From NCBI RefSeq assembly GCF_963668385.1, contig NZ_OY764327.1, forward strand, positions 682,001 to 746,000: DNA of 64,000 nucleotides, written 5' to 3'. Below, in pieces: positions 1,479 to 7,930 of the stretch (positions within the stretch are counted from its first letter, which is position 1; each line of letters opens with the position of its first letter). Made by a program: the position numbers and the translations under genes. This stretch comes from an uncultured Carboxylicivirga sp. GTDB taxonomy: Bacteria > Bacteroidota > Bacteroidia > Bacteroidales > Marinilabiliaceae. The notes beneath the pieces were generated by a model that made no database searches, was not told the DNA's origin, and was given only the letters and a program-made list of their open reading frames with translations.

Positions 1479-2078
1479 TTATTTATGTCTACTCTTTAAC
1501 TCACGAGCTAAATCTTCGATACGATAGCCTTTGTAAGTAAGCAATACAATCAAGTGATAAAGAAGATCAGCACCTTCATATAGAAAATTCTCATCATCAT
1601 TTGCCATGGCTCCAATCACTGTTTCTATGGCTTCTTCACCTACTTTTTGAGTTATCTTGCGAATACCTTTATTGAATAAATGAGTGGTGTACGAGCCTTC
1701 TGGCATTTCTTCTTTACGCTTATCAATAAAGTCCTGTAAGGTCTTCAGGAACAATAAATCATCTTGCTTATTTTCCTCTTCCCAACAAGTATCTGTTCCT
1801 TTATGACAAACTGGTCCAACTGGGTTTACTTTGATCAACAAAGTATCATCATCACAGTCAACAGCTATCGAAACCACATTCAAAAAGTTACCTGACTCTT
1901 CACCTTTTGTCCAAAGACGTTCTTTGGTTCGGCTATAAAAAGTAACTTTTCTTTCCTCCTTTGTTTTTTCGTAGGCTTCTTCATTCATAAATCCCAACAT
2001 CAATACTTTGTTGGTGGTATTATCCTGAATAATTGCCGGCACAAGGCCGTTTCCCAGTTTTTGAAAATCTATTTTCAT
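1479..2078 (-). CDS. hisI: Bifunctional phosphoribosyl-AMP cyclohydrolase / phosphoribosyl-ATP pyrophosphatase HisIE
   Basis: Carries out steps 2 and 3 of histidine synthesis: pyrophosphate removal from PR-ATP, then opening of the PR-AMP ring. The N-terminal HisI domain (residues 1-105) shows WTKGEESGNF at 56-65, the Mg-binding DCDDD at 74-78, and the zinc cysteines Cys91 and Cys98. The C-terminal HisE domain (about 106-199) shows KVGEEAIET at 145-153 and Glu/Asp ligands in YEGADLLYH. Length (199) is normal for the fusion. It is the last his gene of the cluster, 12 bases downstream of a heptamer array. Upstream his genes (hisG, D, C, B) are not in the window. Confidence 0.97.
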   Translation of the reverse strand: MKIDFQKLGNGLVPAIIQDNTTNKVLMLGFMNEEAYEKTKEERKVTFYSRTKERLWTKGEESGNFLNVVSIAVDCDDDTLLIKVNPVGPVCHKGTDTCWEEENKQDDLLFLKTLQDFIDKRKEEMPEGSYTTHLFNKGIRKITQKVGEEAIETVIGAMANDDENFLYEGADLLYHLIVLLTYKGYRIEDLARELKSRHK

Positions 2079-2090
2079 GTTTTACCTTTT

Positions 2091-2123
2091 AGCTATTAGC
2101 TACTAGCTGCTGGCTACTAGCTA
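2091..2123. repeat. Element A, left inverted-repeat arm (tandem TAGCTAC heptamers)
   Basis: Tandem 7-base units of the type TAGCTAC/TAGCTGC/TGGCTAC. Positions 2097-2122 match the reverse complement of 2492-2517 at 24 of 26 bases, so the two arms bracket the four-helix-bundle gene 2128-2478 as terminal inverted repeats. The arm starts 12 bases from the hisIE start codon. Confidence 0.85.
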
Positions 2124-2127
2124 TGTA

Positions 2128-2478
2128 TTACTTTAATTTTTTCATGAAGGATTGCAGCATTTTAGCTTCTTCTTCAATTAAATTCTCTAATATTTTAACA
2201 AACTCCTCTAAGTGTGAATACTGTAATTTAACAATTTCCAATTGTGTATCTAATTCAAAACAACTACCAAGTGCAATTTCAACATATCGATGATAATCCT
2301 TATCACTTCTTCTGCTACTTCCTTCAGCTATATTAGAAGGAATTGAAACAGAACACCTGTTCATCTGAGATACCAAATTAAACTTTTCGATATCTGGTAA
2401 CTGAGCTGTTAAATCATAAGTTGCTTTAACAATCTCAATCCCCTTTTGCCAAATTTTAAGTTGCTTGTAGTTTTTCAT
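2128..2478 (-). CDS. Four-helix-bundle protein (S23/IVS family, TIGR02436-type), copy A
   Basis: A 116-residue all-helical protein with the family signature SIPSNIAEG (residues 45-53) and the N-terminal LKIWQKGIEIV helix. Members are encoded inside intervening sequences of 23S rRNA genes in some bacteria and are structurally related to the Avd accessory protein of diversity-generating retroelements; their biochemical role is unsettled. No reverse transcriptase is present here. The gene sits between hisF and hisIE, framed by near-perfect inverted repeats, the same layout as rRNA intervening sequences. Two paralogues (3320-3682 and 5142-5492) lie in the same gene run. I infer it belongs to a small insertion element rather than to histidine synthesis. 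Confidence 0.9.
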   Translation of the reverse strand: MKNYKQLKIWQKGIEIVKATYDLTAQLPDIEKFNLVSQMNRCSVSIPSNIAEGSSRRSDKDYHRYVEIALGSCFELDTQLEIVKLQYSHLEEFVKILENLIEEEAKMLQSFMKKLK

Positions 2479-2486
2479 AAAAAAAG

Positions 2487-2517
2487 CTAACAGCTAGTAG
2501 CCAGAAGCTAGCAGCTA
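2487..2517. repeat. Element A, right inverted-repeat arm
   Basis: Reverse-complement partner of the 2091-2123 arm (24/26 identity over 2492-2517), also built of 7-base AGCTAGT-type units. It ends 2 bases from the hisF stop codon, so in transcription order the array begins directly after hisF. Confidence 0.85.
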
Positions 2518-2519
2518 TT

Positions 2520-3278
2520 TCATAATCTTATCGATATCCCCTGCTTATCTAAATACCTCTTCAAGTCAGGTATCGGAATCTCTTTAAAGTGAAAGATACT
2601 GGCTGCTAATCCGGCATCGGCTTTACCCAATGTAAAAACATCTTTAAAGTGTTCCATTGCACCTGCTCCACCCGAAGCAATAATTGGAATAGACAAGTCA
2701 TCGCTTAATTTAGCCAAAGCTTCATTGGCAAAACCTGTTTTCACTCCGTCATGATCCATACTGGTAAAAAGAATCTCACCGGCACCTCTGTCTTCAGCCT
2801 CTTTGGCCCATGAGAAGAGCTTTTTCTCAGTAGGAATGCGTCCACCATTTACGGTAACAATCCAATCATCTCCCTGATCATGTTTCGCATCAATGGCAGC
2901 AACCACAAACTGACTTCCAAAATTCTTCGCCAAATCATCAATCAATTGCGGATTTCGCACAGCTGAGGAATTAATGGAAATCTTATCTGCCCCAGCATTT
3001 AAAAGAGCATCAGCATCGCTCAACTCACTTATTCCGCCACCAACGGTAAACGGGATATTAATATTACGAGCAATGCGTCGAACCAAATCAACAAAAGTCT
3101 TGCGCCCTTCGTGACTGGCAGTGATATCAAGAAAAACCAATTCATCAGCTCCTTGTTCAGCATACAATGCACCCAACTCAACAGGATCTCCAACTTCTTT
3201 AATTTCTACAAACTTAACCCCTTTAACGGTTTGTCCGTTTTTTATATCGAGGCATGGTATAATACGTTTTGCAAGCAT
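2520..3278 (-). CDS. hisF: Imidazole glycerol phosphate synthase cyclase subunit HisF
   Basis: The 252-residue (beta/alpha)8-barrel cyclase that works with HisH: ammonia from HisH and PRFAR give imidazole glycerol phosphate and AICAR. Catalytic Asp11 ([10 protein letters not shown]) and Asp130 (AAIDAKHD) are at their canonical positions. Phosphate-binding glycine motifs are seen in FTVGGGI and IIASGGAG. Length is normal and the start ATG is clear. It lies in the minus-strand his run but is cut off from hisA and hisIE on both sides by four-helix-bundle insertions. Cotranscription with hisH is likely, but stoichiometry could be altered by the insertions. Confidence 0.98.
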
Positions 3279-3287
3279 GTTTTTTTT

Positions 3288-3320
3288 AAGTTTTAAGTTC
3301 GACAGGCAGAGGGCAGAAGT
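3288..3320. repeat. Element B, left arm (AGGCAGA-type heptamers)
   Basis: Units with a 7-base beat (AAGTTTT, AAGTTCG, then AGGCAG and AGGGCAG). Positions 3304-3319 match the reverse complement of 3706-3721 at 14 of 16 bases. The arm reaches the stop codon of four-helix-bundle copy B and ends 9 bases from the hisF start. Confidence 0.7.
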
Positions 3321-3682
3321 TATTTAGATGACTGCTTAAGTTTATATATTAAACTTGATAACATCTTCTCAATCTCGATAGATAAATTGTTCACTTTATC
3401 AAAATCTTCCTTGACAATATATTCTAAACGTAAAGCGATCTCAATTTGTGTTTGAAGCTCATAAAGCGATCCAGAAGATATCTGTAGGAAACGTATGTAA
3501 TCCTTTGTGTGATTTCTTCCATATCCTTCAGCGATATTTGAAGGAATTGATATTACGCATCTTCGAACTTGTTGAGTCAAACAATATAATTCTTCAGCAG
3601 GAAAATGTTTTGTCAGCTTATAAGTATCCTCAACCAGATCCATACCTTTTTGCCAAACAATTAAATCTCTATACGTTTTCAT
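3320..3682 (-). CDS. Four-helix-bundle protein (S23/IVS family), copy B
   Basis: A 120-residue helical protein with the same landmarks as copies A and [12 protein letters not shown] at residues 7-17, [17 protein letters not shown] near 40-56, and a heptad-rich C-terminal helix. It lies between hisA and hisF, framed by inverted arrays of AGGCAGA-type units. Sequence similarity to copies A and C is clear but far from identity, so this is not a recent local duplication. Function is unknown; the family occurs in 23S rRNA intervening sequences. Its stop codon overlaps the left array. Alternative: a resident small RNA-binding protein with no mobility. Confidence 0.9.
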
Positions 3683-3705
3683 ATTCTTAAGTTTAGTTAC
3701 ATCAT

Positions 3706-3750
3706 CTACTGCCTTCTGCCTTACATTCTTCTGCCTTATATTCTTCTGCC
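3706..3750. repeat. Element B, right arm with a 15-base tandem repeat
   Basis: CTTCTGCC occurs three times in this stretch, the last two separated by a 15-base period (CTGCCTTACATTCTT followed by a near copy). The part nearest the gene (3706-3721) pairs with 3304-3319. The array begins 3 bases after the hisA stop codon in transcription order. Confidence 0.7.
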
Positions 3751-3753
3751 TAT

Positions 3754-4479
3754 TTAAAGAAATCTTTGCAACTCTTTCAACTCAATTCTCCCCTCATAAA
3801 TTGCTTTACCAAAAATGACTGCAGGCACTTTGGCTTCGGCTAGCTTCTCTATATCTTCGATATTACTAACTCCTCCACTGGCTACCAGATACAAATCAGG
3901 AATTTCAGCCAGTATATCTTTGTATAACTCAATGGCAGGACCTTGCAGCATACCATCTTTACTGATATCAGTACAAATGACTTTTTGAATCCCCTTTGCT
4001 GAATAATCCTTTATGAATGGAATTAATTCCTGGTCGGTTTCTTCAATCCAACCTGTTACTGCTATTTTATTGTCTTTAGCATCCGCTCCCAGAATTATTT
4101 TCTCGCTTCCATATTGCTCAATCCATCCCTCAAATTCAGGACGATTTTTAACCGCGATACTACCTCCGGTAATCATCTGAGCTCCGCATTCAAAAGCAAT
4201 CCTAAGATCTTCTGTTGTCTTCAATCCGCCACCAAAATCAACCACCAGGTTTGTTTTACCTGCAATATTTTCTAGCGTTTTATAATTGATGATATGTCCG
4301 GCTTTGGCGCCATCCAAATCAACTACATGCAAACGCTGAATCCCATTATCTTCAAACTCACGAGCTACTTCCAATGGATCTTCGTTATAAACCTTTTTGC
4401 TCGCGTAATCACCCTGACTTAATCGAACACATTTGCCTTCAATAATATCAATAGCAGGTATAATATCTATCTTCCCCAT
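3754..4479 (-). CDS. hisA: Phosphoribosyl-formimino-AICAR ribotide isomerase HisA
   Basis: Isomerises ProFAR to PRFAR, the fourth step of histidine synthesis. It is a 241-residue barrel protein with Asp11 in [14 protein letters not shown] and the second catalytic Asp at about 133 in LGADAKD. Phosphate-binding glycines are in DFGGGLKT and VASGGVSN. Length is normal for the family. The start is 4 bases after the hisH stop, so hisH and hisA are tightly coupled. Downstream it is separated from hisF by element B. Confidence 0.97.
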
Positions 4480-4483
4480 TTTT

Positions 4484-5140
4484 TTACAGACTTAAGAAAT
4501 TTGACAAAATACGCTCACCCACTGATCCACTTTTCTCAGGATGAAACTGTGTTGCGTAAAAATTATTCTTTTTCAAGGCTGAACTATATTCCAAGATATA
4601 TTTTGTGGTAGCTGCAGTATCGGGGCCTTTGGCCACATAAAAACTATGCACAAAATACACAAACTCGTTTTCCAATGTAGCATCAAACAGTGCACTATTC
4701 ACATTATAGATAGAGTTCCAACCCATGTGCGGAATTTTAATGTTATCAGGATTTCCTTCTGGCAACTGAAACTTACGCACTTTTTCATCGAAGATACCCA
4801 AACACTCAACGTCACCTTCTTCGGACCAGCTACACATCAATTGCATCCCAAGACAAATTCCCAAAACAGGTTGCTTCAGATTTACAATTAAATCATCTAA
4901 ACCTGTTTCTCTAAGATATTTCATGGTTGTACTAGCTTCCCCAACACCGGGAAAAATAACCTTATCTGCACTTTTAATTACTTCTGGATCTGCCGATATC
5001 TCAGCCTCATACCCCAATCGGTTTAATGCATTTAAAACAGATCTGATATTACCAGCATTGTATTTAATTATTACGATTTTTTGAGAGTTCGAAGCTCCAA
5101 GTTCGGAGTCCGAAGTATGCTTTTCTGAATTTTCATTCAT
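4484..5140 (-). CDS. hisH: Imidazole glycerol phosphate synthase glutaminase subunit HisH, with a repeat-derived N-terminal extension
   Basis: Glutamine amidotransferase that feeds ammonia to HisF. The triad is present: Cys96 in GICLGMQ, His200 and Glu202 in FHPEKS. The protein is 218 residues, about 20 longer than usual, because the normal start ([11 protein letters not shown]) is preceded by residues 1-20. That extension (around [10 protein letters not shown]) is encoded by the 7-base repeat array 5085-5118, the left arm of element C. The ATG lies 1 base after the stop of the four-helix-bundle gene, a likely translational coupling. I see no in-frame ATG closer to KIVIIKYN, so the extension is probably made. 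Confidence 0.95.
5085..5118. repeat. Element C, left arm, lying inside hisH
   Basis: Degenerate tandem heptamers (AGTTCGA, AGCTCCA, AGTTCGG, AGTCCGA) in the 5' coding region of hisH. The core AGTCCGAAGT (5108-5117) is inverted at 5521-5549, the right arm beyond the four-helix-bundle gene. Because 7 is not a multiple of 3, successive units are read in different frames, giving a non-repetitive peptide. Confidence 0.75.
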
Positions 5141-5141
5141 A

Positions 5142-5492
5142 TTATTTCAATTTTGCTTTTAATCCCTTAAGCATTTTATCAATCTCTTCCAGCTTGTCAA
5201 TAGCTTTGTTTAAATCATCTATTGTTAGGTACCCCACATTCTTCGCAATTTCCAACTGAGTTTGCACTTCGTAATTTGAACCAATTGCAATGGAAAGAAA
5301 CCTTGAAAAGTCACCGTCTGATTTTCTACCATACCCTTCAGCTATATTCGATGGAATAGAAACAGAGGCTCTTCTAATTTGATTTGTTAGACCAAATTTC
5401 TCTTCTTCAGGAAAAGCAGTTGTGATATCATACACTTCTGTAACAAAATCCATCGACTTCTGCCAAACCATCAATTCTCTAAATGACTTCAT
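5142..5492 (-). CDS. Four-helix-bundle protein (S23/IVS family), copy C
   Basis: A 116-residue helical protein with LMVWQKSMDFV at residues 7-17, [18 protein letters not shown] near 40-57, and a lysine-rich C-terminal helix. Third member of the family within 3.4 kb. It is placed directly upstream of hisH, and its stop codon is one base from the hisH ATG. It lies between arms made of AGTCCGA-type heptamers, one of which now codes for the HisH N-terminus. Family function is unsettled. The tight junction suggests that translation of hisH depends on translation of this gene. Confidence 0.9.
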   Translation of the reverse strand: MKSFRELMVWQKSMDFVTEVYDITTAFPEEEKFGLTNQIRRASVSIPSNIAEGYGRKSDGDFSRFLSIAIGSNYEVQTQLEIAKNVGYLTIDDLNKAIDKLEEIDKMLKGLKAKLK

Positions 5493-5520
5493 AATATGTA
5501 GATTTGAGTTAATATCTCAT

Positions 5521-5549
5521 ATCGGACTTCGGACTTTCTACTACGGACT
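5521..5549. repeat. Element C, right arm (AGTCCGA-type heptamers)
   Basis: On the minus strand this reads as units AGTCCGT, AGTAGAA, AGTCCGA, AGTCCGA. It shares the inverted core AGTCCGAAGT with 5108-5117 in hisH. It touches the stop codon of the TlpA-like gene (5549-5551). Confidence 0.75.
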
Positions 5550-6073
5550 TACTTTAATTTCTCCCCAATCTTCTTAACCAACTCTCCAAACTCGTCTTCA
5601 TTGTATAATCTGGTCAGAAAGATGATTTTACCTTCACGATCAATTAGCACATTACGAGTAACACCAGCTTGCTTATCAGCATACAACCCAAAAATATCTG
5701 CTCCTGGATCTAATCCCATATCATATGTAACCTTTGTAGCCTTCTTCAATTCCAAAGCTTTTTTAACAGGTTCATCTCTATCGATACCATATAGTTTAAG
5801 GCCTTTATCTTTGTATGCCTGCCATATTTGCTCCTCGATATGTGGCATTTCCTTGCGACAAACACTGCACCAACTGGCTGTAAACTGAAGCATTACCACC
5901 TGTCCTTTCAAGTCGGATAACTTCACCTTTGTCCCATCTGTTAATACCATTTCAAAATCAGGAGCTTGATCACCCACTTTTACAATATACCCTCTGTCAT
6001 CAGGAGCAGATTGAGCAAATAGTGAAATACAAAAGACAGATAATAAGAATGATAGAATTGTTTTCTTCATCAT
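5549..6073 (-). CDS. TlpA/ResA-like secreted thioredoxin-fold protein
   Basis: An extracytoplasmic thioredoxin-family protein with a CXXC active site in SWCSVCRKE, preceded by GDQAPDFEMVLTDGTKVKLSDL, the usual AhpC/TSA-Redoxin entry. I chose the ATG at 6071-6073, at the double Met before KKTILSFLLSVFCISLFAQ, a good signal peptide. An upstream ATG at 6142 would overlap purU and add a polar, unlikely leader. The mature protein is about 150 residues. It probably reduces or exchanges disulfides of periplasmic proteins. It lies 16 bases after purU and just before element C, and its link to his genes is positional only. Confidence 0.88.
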   Translation of the reverse strand: MMKKTILSFLLSVFCISLFAQSAPDDRGYIVKVGDQAPDFEMVLTDGTKVKLSDLKGQVVMLQFTASWCSVCRKEMPHIEEQIWQAYKDKGLKLYGIDRDEPVKKALELKKATKVTYDMGLDPGADIFGLYADKQAGVTRNVLIDREGKIIFLTRLYNEDEFGELVKKIGEKLK

Positions 6074-6947: not shown

Positions 6948-6984
6948 TTATATTTTTTTGTTTAGTTGTTCAATATTATAGTCT

Positions 6985-7030
6985 GTTAGTTTTTAGTCAG
7001 TAGGCAGAAGTTGATTTACAAGTCGCACAA
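6985..7030. repeat. Direct repeat downstream of trpA (heptamer-type)
   Basis: This 46-base stretch matches 7885-7930 in the same orientation at 39 of 46 positions; the two copies are exactly 900 bases apart and flank trpA. The first part has a 7-base beat (TTAGTTT, TTAGTCA, GTAGGCA, GAAGTTG), and its AGGCAGAAGT is also present in element B. Confidence 0.75.
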
Positions 7031-7870: not shown

Positions 7871-7884
7871 GTTAATCTTAGTTG

Positions 7885-7930
7885 ATTAGTTTTAAGTCAG
7901 TAGGCATTAGTTTATTTACAGCTCGCACAA
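7885..7930. repeat. Direct repeat upstream of trpA (heptamer-type)
   Basis: Partner of 6985-7030 (39/46 identical, same orientation), lying in the trpB-trpA gap. It shares GTCAGTAGGCA and the tail GCACAA. Period of about 7 bases in its first half. Confidence 0.75.

Follow-up and report, generated by a model that had tools for sequence, protein, structure and literature searches.

The window analysed here is a stretch of 64,000 nucleotides from an uncultured Carboxylicivirga sp. of the Bacteroidota (RefSeq assembly GCF_963668385.1, contig NZ_OY764327.1, positions 682,001 to 746,000). In its his region lie three small genes of the S23 family, also named for the intervening sequence protein (IVP) of 23S rRNA, and each of them stands between two inverted arrays built on a seven-base unit. 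The question raised by this locus is what brings genes of a family known from rRNA intervening sequences (IVSs), together with such arms, to the junctions of a protein-coding operon. Our analysis of the window, of relatives of the organism and of S23 loci from many phyla indicates, with a probability of roughly 0.78, that S23 genes are the cargo of mobile IVS-type cassettes that have spread far wider than rRNA. The proposed cassette would consist of a 5' heptamer array, an S23/IVP gene with its own start codon and an inverted 3' heptamer array.

The three genes all lie on the minus strand and score well above the PF05635 (23S_rRNA_IVP) cut-off of 33.8 bits: gene A (2128..2478, between hisF and hisIE) with 112.9 bits, gene B (3320..3682, between hisA and hisF) with 140.2 bits and gene C (5142..5492, between a TlpA-like gene and hisH) with 146.7 bits. 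All of them also match TIGR02436 'four helix bundle protein', which confirms the family membership that an earlier note on this DNA had proposed from its letters alone. Gene C further matches the solved S23 structure 2GSC (E 1e-25) and, more weakly, 2RLD; five chains are listed in each entry. As that note had described, the two arms of each cassette are inverted and have a common unit that differs from copy to copy. Cassette A is built on TAGCTAC, with a 3' arm at 2090..2123 (4.9 copies, 81%, by Tandem Repeats Finder, TRF) and a 5' arm at about 2486..2517, read from the sequence, which adjoins the hisF stop codon and pairs with the other arm in the predicted RNA fold. Cassette B has AGGCAGA, of which the 3' arm (about 3303..3319, by sequence) holds only about 2.3 units; its 5' arm (about 3707..3751; TRF 3713-3751) adjoins the hisA stop codon and contains one extra 15-base repeat compared with the near relative G003. 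In cassette C, with unit AGTCCGA, the 5' arm (about 5522..5551; TRF 5522-5536 and sequence) lies at the stop codon of the TlpA-like gene, and the 3' arm (about 5085..5117, by sequence) falls within the predicted hisH open reading frame (ORF) as an N-terminal extension. The upstream arrays start at or next to the stop codons of hisF, hisA and the TlpA-like gene, as the note had stated.

Homologous junctions in relatives were then compared. HisF was sought in 40 relatives and found in 35, and 30 loci were read. Nine of 27 readable hisA-hisF junctions contain an S23 gene (truncated in G011), three contain remnants (G005, G006 and G022) and 15 contain none, including one without any gap (G015) and one with 1247 bp of other sequence (G025). 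The hisF-hisIE junction is filled in 9 of 26 cases, and 24 hisH junctions comprise 11 filled ones, two with remnants (G004, G009) and 11 empty ones. The outcome that the earlier note named as a refutation, the same genes at the same junctions in all relatives, did not occur: filled, empty and scarred junctions coexist in one genus. Short empty junctions of the genus (2-19 bp; G004, G007, G008, G010 and G011) contain no arrays of the kinds found at filled junctions; two AACTAA near-repeats in the 18-bp hisA-hisF gap of G004 may be a remnant. Where a junction is filled, the unit goes with the protein. At hisA-hisF, AGGCAGA accompanies proteins with 69-100% identity to that of gene B, among them one from a different genus (G017), and AGTCAGT accompanies proteins with 57-62%, and at hisF-hisIE three unit types match three protein identity groups. 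At the hisH junction ten genomes have AGTCCGA, each with the 3' arm in frame with HisH from an upstream ATG, giving an N-terminal extension. The protein of G007 at this junction is 57% identical, its unit is AGTGCNN, and the stub of an AGTCCGA array adjoins the cassette.

A further junction, before a gene beginning MRPxFNNIDFK that we take to be methylmalonyl-CoA mutase, was compared in 14 genomes of the genus. It holds an S23 gene with TAGACTT arms in six, with AGTANNN arms in three and with AGATAAG arms in one; the rest are two with a GxxExxY-like ORF and differently spaced arms (a label given from the motif), one scar and one contig end. In the present genome, halves of two AGTANNN arms without an ORF precede this gene (L279, about 2010-2090), apparently the scar of a lost cassette. 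Gene and arms are thus present, absent or replaced as a unit at homologous junctions, and plain vertical inheritance of one cassette was rejected on the filled, empty and replaced junctions of close relatives. The divergence of the window copies had been put down to separate insertions or to age; age stands, and replacement must be added, as one junction can hold different kinds. The junction comparison likewise supports a small protein-coding insertion element, which would move as DNA or as RNA.

These junctions also bear on the view that the arms are translation or transcription signals (a terminator, a coupling element or stops in all frames) of an ordinary gene whose S23 protein serves the host. 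Vertical persistence at hisH, with AGTCCGA in ten genomes, and purifying selection on the S23 protein would suit such a gene, and a TAG-bearing unit at seven-base spacing does place a stop in every frame. However, many units (AGGCAGA, AGTCCGA) contain no stop, close relatives have filled, empty and replaced sites, and copies nested in host genes avoid host-frame stops. We consider this explanation very doubtful.

The two arms of one copy stay complementary while diverging from the arms of relatives. Flank complementarity within one locus was 15.1-18.6 (means of four sets) versus 8.9-10.0 with flanks of other loci, and a non-reversed control with the same flank gave 9.8-11.2 (n=160). The complementarity of a locus's own arms exceeded the mean of other loci in 33/34 genus, 17/20 family, 24/28 phylum and 61/78 many-phyla loci. 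When locus pairs were compared, own complementarity was 16.2-17.4 throughout, and cross-complementarity was 16.9 at 90-97% protein identity (15 pairs), 16.4 at 80-90% (43 pairs), 14.7 at 70-80% (107 pairs) and 12.5 at 60-70% (780 pairs); above 80% identity, own and cross-complementarity do not differ. Among pairs without a common flanking gene, unit similarity rose from 0.47 in the 311 pairs with 30-40% protein identity to 0.71 in the 42 pairs with at least 70%; the locus pairs of these two tests are not independent, and p-values from them should not be taken literally. On the protein tree the unit classes require 34 changes versus 62.9 in 200 shuffles (least 59), and in the Bacteroidota set 16 versus 33.3. 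L007-L009 and the duplicate L089 were left out of the within-locus complementarity, unit-similarity and tree tests. We conclude that arm unit and protein are inherited together. Heptamer slippage, previously proposed as the way in which the arms evolve, may contribute, but alone it fails to explain the concerted change of two arms.

To describe the spread of this arrangement, the best lag among 3-21 was chosen in 100-bp flanks of S23 loci, mostly the best-scoring ones, with flank and ORF starts set by rule; loci with short or N-bearing flanks were dropped before this test and before the arm-complementarity and unit-similarity tests. PF05635 is present in 232/296 sampled genomes of the phylum and in 53/60 of the family. 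The many-phyla set consists of the best 80 of at least 513 confirmed relatives of one query, itself a nested copy. Lag 7 was best in 11 upstream and 19 downstream flanks of 34 genus loci, 6 and 13 of 20 family loci, 16 and 16 of 29 phylum loci, and 59 and 46 of 78 many-phyla loci. Another 40 loci were hand-picked over the score range: lag 7 was best in 6/20 upstream and 9/19 downstream flanks of those from Bacteroidota (lag 14 or 21 in another 6 and 5), and in 14/19 and 13/20 of those from other phyla. It is the commonest best period in every locus set, and it is the units, not the period, that are highly diverse. Among 213 loci, 127 upstream and 116 downstream arms passed the score, with median lengths of 31 and 32 nt; four or five heptamers are found in 72/127 and 55/116 of them, respectively.

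As a control, 30 phylum loci of the GxxExxY family (PF13366) were treated in the same manner, two mis-framed rows (L296, L319) remaining in the count. Lag 9 was best upstream in six and lag 8 in four; lag 7 was outside the eight commonest upstream lags and was best downstream in 2/30. By inspection, GxxExxY-kind ORFs (L280 and L289, about 2020-2540; L292-L321, these with PF13366) often lie between inverted CACAGAG-like repeats with a spacing of 8-11 bases. Judged from these sequences, they appear to represent a second, differently spaced type of cassette, which has one junction in common with the S23 cassettes of relatives.

In the present genome, the PF05635 search returned nine rows representing eight loci, three of which are the his copies. 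The expectation that other family members would also carry heptamer arms was borne out, by eye, at four of the five non-his loci (4020202, 3994285, 1906236 and the pseudogene 3991374-3991672); no such flanks were seen at the decayed locus 4021820. The chance background was taken from 484 kb of this genome (20 stretches of 20 kb plus the window). Stretches with at least 20/28 matches numbered four at lag 7, of which two flank gene A and two lie in L238, five at lag 6 and six at lag 21. Since lag 7 is no commoner than lags 6 and 21, heptamer arrays do not characterise the genome at large. In 60-bp flanks, a lag-7 score of at least 16/21 was reached by 1/328 other genes versus 12/34 genus PF05635 loci and 1/6 intact copies of this genome, and a score of at least 15/21 by 6/328, 14/34 and 3/6, respectively; lag 8 is raised as well in the genus (5/34 PF05635 loci at 16/21). 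The lag counts and the 328-gene comparison led us to reject the arrays as a genome-wide general feature. The heptamer signal is weak for single copies and strong family-wide. In L238 (1955-2140), an AGTCAGT array at 1955-1997 is followed after about 100 bp by an inverted partner of the same unit, with no S23 gene between them.

Arrays without a gene are frequent in some genomes. The AGTGGYY array pattern has 80, 214 and 41 overlapping matches in G387, G393 and G394, where PF05635 matches number only 4, 10 and 4; a reversed control pattern had no match in these three, but among the 12 genomes it matched 26 times in G383 and 1-4 times in two more. The 80 matches of G387 form 31 arrays, of which three lie no more than 250 bp from a PF05635 match, and there are five inverted pairs within 800 bp; the 41 of G394 form 23 arrays, none near a PF05635 match and none paired. 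No S23 ORF was found in any of the eight array examples inspected (of 15). Among the 296 phylum genomes the pattern occurs in 20, all within the 232 having PF05635 (in G293 with a match of only E 2.7e-4); this comparison is weak, as the control pattern occurs in 14/296 and 20/296 is little above it. In L396, a palindromic repeat of the CTCCCTCAGTCACC type was seen by eye in the gene's place between two AGTGG arrays.

Such arrays could mean that heptamer arrays arise on their own and form the target, S23 genes being inserted into them or kept beside them. Partnerless heptamer arrays described in the literature (PMC4692102 and PMC4679880, in their accessible parts) are in line with this, as are the AGTGC cassette of G007 adjoining the stub of an older AGTCCGA array and the near-repeats in the G004 gap. 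On the other hand, the other short empty junctions of the genus are free of arrays, the unit follows the protein at one identical junction, arrays are rare in this genome away from S23 flanks, and insertion into a single array would not produce the inverted arms that surround the gene. A pre-existing target appears quite improbable to us. Under the mobile-cassette explanation, gene-free arrays may instead be non-autonomous derivatives.

Copies nested inside host genes provide another view of the cassette. Across the S23 gene, the +2 (= -1) frame is open in 26 of the 80 pan-bacterial loci and the +1 frame in none; L172 and L192 among the 26 are chance openings beside genes, and L158 is shifted on the N side. 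The remaining 23, all in one register, are nested in a long host ORF, pglX in 22 and an N6_N4 methyltransferase gene in L215; the sample was drawn with a nested query, and 23/80 is no estimate of the frequency of nesting. An open host frame was found in 2/84 loci of the Bacteroidota set (L095 and L089, the latter being the same element as L147). The name pglX rests on NCBIfam NF033452 in 12/22 (ten over the cut-off; L175 and L199 under it) and otherwise on similarity to two of these. When L158 is included, the host is in open frame on both sides in 20 of 23 pglX loci, on one side only in L167 and L175, and shifted in L158. Further nested cases are L095 (N6_N4 methyltransferase) and L247 (pglX by translation). 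Alignment to solved PglX structures shows inserts of about 136 residues replacing 12 (BrxX 282-294), of about 189 replacing 15 (8c45 999-1014) and, in a weak alignment, of about 167 replacing 5 (8c45 333-338). Landing after stop codons, as claimed earlier, is not a general rule, since there are copies within genes as well.

Within the S23 gene, all 23 nested loci have zero host-frame stops versus 3.26 expected when their own synonymous codons are shuffled, although 54 non-nested relatives are also below expectation (4.72 versus 6.40). In 5' arms of nested loci, AG is preceded by C in 13/13 host-phase heptamers and by T in 13/28 heptamers of the other phases; in non-nested loci, T precedes it in 17/24 heptamers of the same phase. 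This test, from both groups of which L158, L172 and L192 were omitted, is partly circular because nested loci are those with an open host frame. Nested pairs and non-nested pairs both have their substitutions clustered at third codon positions of the S23 frame, from which it follows that selection keeps the S23 protein and that the host frame is mainly just kept open. The S23 protein is under purifying selection. Labelling the protein tree by insertion site gave 16 changes versus 24 in shuffles, and its starred branches force at least two and at least three changes at sites 1 and 3, so that the same sites were probably hit repeatedly; this tree has few columns and many open forks. In L148, L153 and L169, the pglX host frame stops early downstream of the nested cassette, perhaps through breaks in the host gene away from the insert or through assembly errors.

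Two explanations concern the nested copies in particular. According to the first, the cassette would be removed from RNA with rejoining, like an intron. Complementary ends do close a stem, and rRNA IVSs are excised (PMC4990558, in its accessible part); however, excision of rRNA IVSs leaves the ends unjoined, and with rejoining there would be no need for the host frame to stay open across the insert. Intron-like splicing was rejected on the open host frames and the stop avoidance of nested loci and seems hardly credible. According to the second, nested copies are a switch of the host frame, in which seven-base heptamer slippage turns the methyltransferase off and on. It is true that 7 is not divisible by 3, that pglX in L158 continues from its N-terminal half into the S23 frame, and that arm copy number differs between the present genome (G000) and G003. 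Nevertheless, the 23 pglX loci include only one shifted case, slippage should be slow in arms so degenerate, and the intergenic copies are left unexplained. As an account of the nested copies this switch is unlikely, and frame switching may be a side effect of nesting.

For the mobile IVS-type cassette, we propose the following mechanism. The arms would base-pair with each other, in the transcript or else in single-stranded or cruciform DNA, and close a stem that RNase III could cleave, as has been reported for a 23S rRNA IVS. The S23 protein, whose solved relative forms a pentamer, would act on its own RNA or DNA and may help a cellular enzyme to copy the cassette, in a manner similar to the partnership of Avd with the reverse transcriptase of diversity-generating retroelements (DGRs). 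The host would tolerate the cassette as it lies between cistrons or is read through. The predicted transcript of cassette A folds much better than shuffles (z -5.16), with the arms closing the ORF, and that of cassette B also folds better (z -2.51).

Several results weigh against this explanation. Cassette C shows no folding advantage over shuffles in its predicted transcript (z 0.09), though its arms pair in the best fold. Own arms surpassed the best of 24 other loci in only 22/34, 12/20, 14/28 and 28/78 loci of the genus, family, phylum and many-phyla sets, and with one locus per context the tree signal is small (16 unit-class changes versus 19.3 in shuffles, least 17). No target-site duplication was found by eye at the his or MRPxFNNIDFK junctions, where the degenerate array ends are not sharp. 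The PF05635 gene is the sole ORF of each window cassette, so that no transposase or recombinase is coded within it; partners elsewhere were not searched. Inverted short repeats around GxxExxY genes mean that arms as such are not unique to S23 genes. Finally, none of 341 loci matched 23S rRNA. Each of the six full 23S copies of this genome covers the model in 2802 bases, and residence of the cassettes in 23S rRNA was rejected. Beside these six there is a partial 23S rRNA copy (G000:C1:3068766-3069996; model 15-1301 in two pieces).

A bolder version, to which we give slightly less than even odds, is that these cassettes are bacteria-wide mobile elements whose ends are set by a seven-base period and not by sequence, whose sole protein is an S23 pentamer without known transposase chemistry, which can hide inside host genes by encoding this protein in a shifted register as the host frame is read through, and from whose gene-free arms a large part of the long-noticed surplus of heptamer repeats in bacterial genomes derives. 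If mobile cassettes are the right explanation, rRNA IVSs would be the visible tip of a mobile family in many phyla, the S23 family would gain a biological setting and heptameric repeats a testable source, and a phage-defence methyltransferase would have a direct frame switch in heptamer slippage. The nested copies, as natural examples of dual coding, reveal which arm bases the host frame does not tolerate. It seems that an overlooked, widespread kind of mobile genetic element is at hand.

The host genes of the window are all on the minus strand: hisIE (1479..2078; PRA-CH and PRA-PH), hisF (2520..3278), used for reading junctions in relatives, hisA (3754..4479) and hisH (4484..5140; TIGR01855, 202.4 bits). 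hisF and hisA were named by translation and operon order, not by family search. HisH proper begins at residue 22 of its ORF according to the TIGR01855 profile match, after the N-terminal extension coded by the cassette C arm. Past hisIE, AGTCAGTGATCAGTAGATTATAGTAGAC followed by CACTACTCTCTACGGAC (1415-1475) resembles an inverted array remnant by eye, and two similar stretches with AGTCAGTAGGCA at neighbouring gene junctions (6978-7013 and 7876-7913) also have the look of array remnants.

No description of heptamer-armed S23 cassettes was found in an open-access library of papers, subscription papers and preprints being outside the scope of the search; a 'four helix bundle protein' appears in a table in the accessible part of PMC5524665. 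The closest known system is the rRNA IVS with an S23p ORF (Coxiella, Leptospira and others), with which the cassettes have in common a PF05635 protein and stem-closing terminal inverted repeats. As described in the accessible text of PMC4990558, the S23 ORF of the Coxiella 23S IVS is preceded by three tandem heptamers and a degenerate fourth, which vary among strains; RNase III cuts at the first of these repeats, the terminal stem measures 28 bp, and the Xanthomonas S23 protein is a homopentameric ring. Heptamers beside the ORF are thus a further likeness, known on the IVS side from one species (PMC4990558). Unlike rRNA IVSs, the cassettes lie between or inside protein genes, with many copies of different units per genome, their heptamer arms are a family-wide rule, and they nest without closing the host frame. 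As a location in rRNA was looked for and not found, we regard the cassette as working like an IVS without being an rRNA IVS.

Avd is a remote homologue, a likeness to PF05635 noted in the accessible part of PMC10053308, and gene C scores 44.4 bits as bAvd-like (Pfam cut-off 40). The window genes differ from DGR Avd in their NF033474 scores (24.2-30.6 bits; cut-off 80). No Pfam match to a DGR reverse transcriptase was obtained in ORFs within about 1 kb of the window copies, no dedicated search for it having been made, and no paper on Avd as an RNA-binding pentamer was found in the open-access library. Heptameric simple repeats are abundant elsewhere as intergenic seven-base arrays, with TAACTGA in Beggiatoaceae and GGGAATC in Xanthomonas, where the arrays mostly have four units and 70 and 75 lie in inverted pairs (PMC4692102, PMC4679880). 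They were called over-represented and ascribed to polymerase slippage (PMC4692102); unlike for the cassettes, the accessible parts of these papers name no partner gene (PMC4692102, PMC4679880).

Two other kinds of palindromic element differ from the cassettes in what they carry and in their ends. Rickettsia palindromic elements are palindromic selfish inserts read in frame inside protein genes. The nested relatives have a palindromic insert read in frame, the window copies do not; unlike the Rickettsia elements, the cassette codes its own conserved protein in another frame and ends in heptamer arrays. REPIN/RAYT systems and miniature inverted-repeat transposable elements (MITEs) consist of many gene-free palindromic copies beside few gene-bearing ones. 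The cassette differs from both in having no Y1 or DDE transposase, and in its arms it is the period that is kept and not the sequence.

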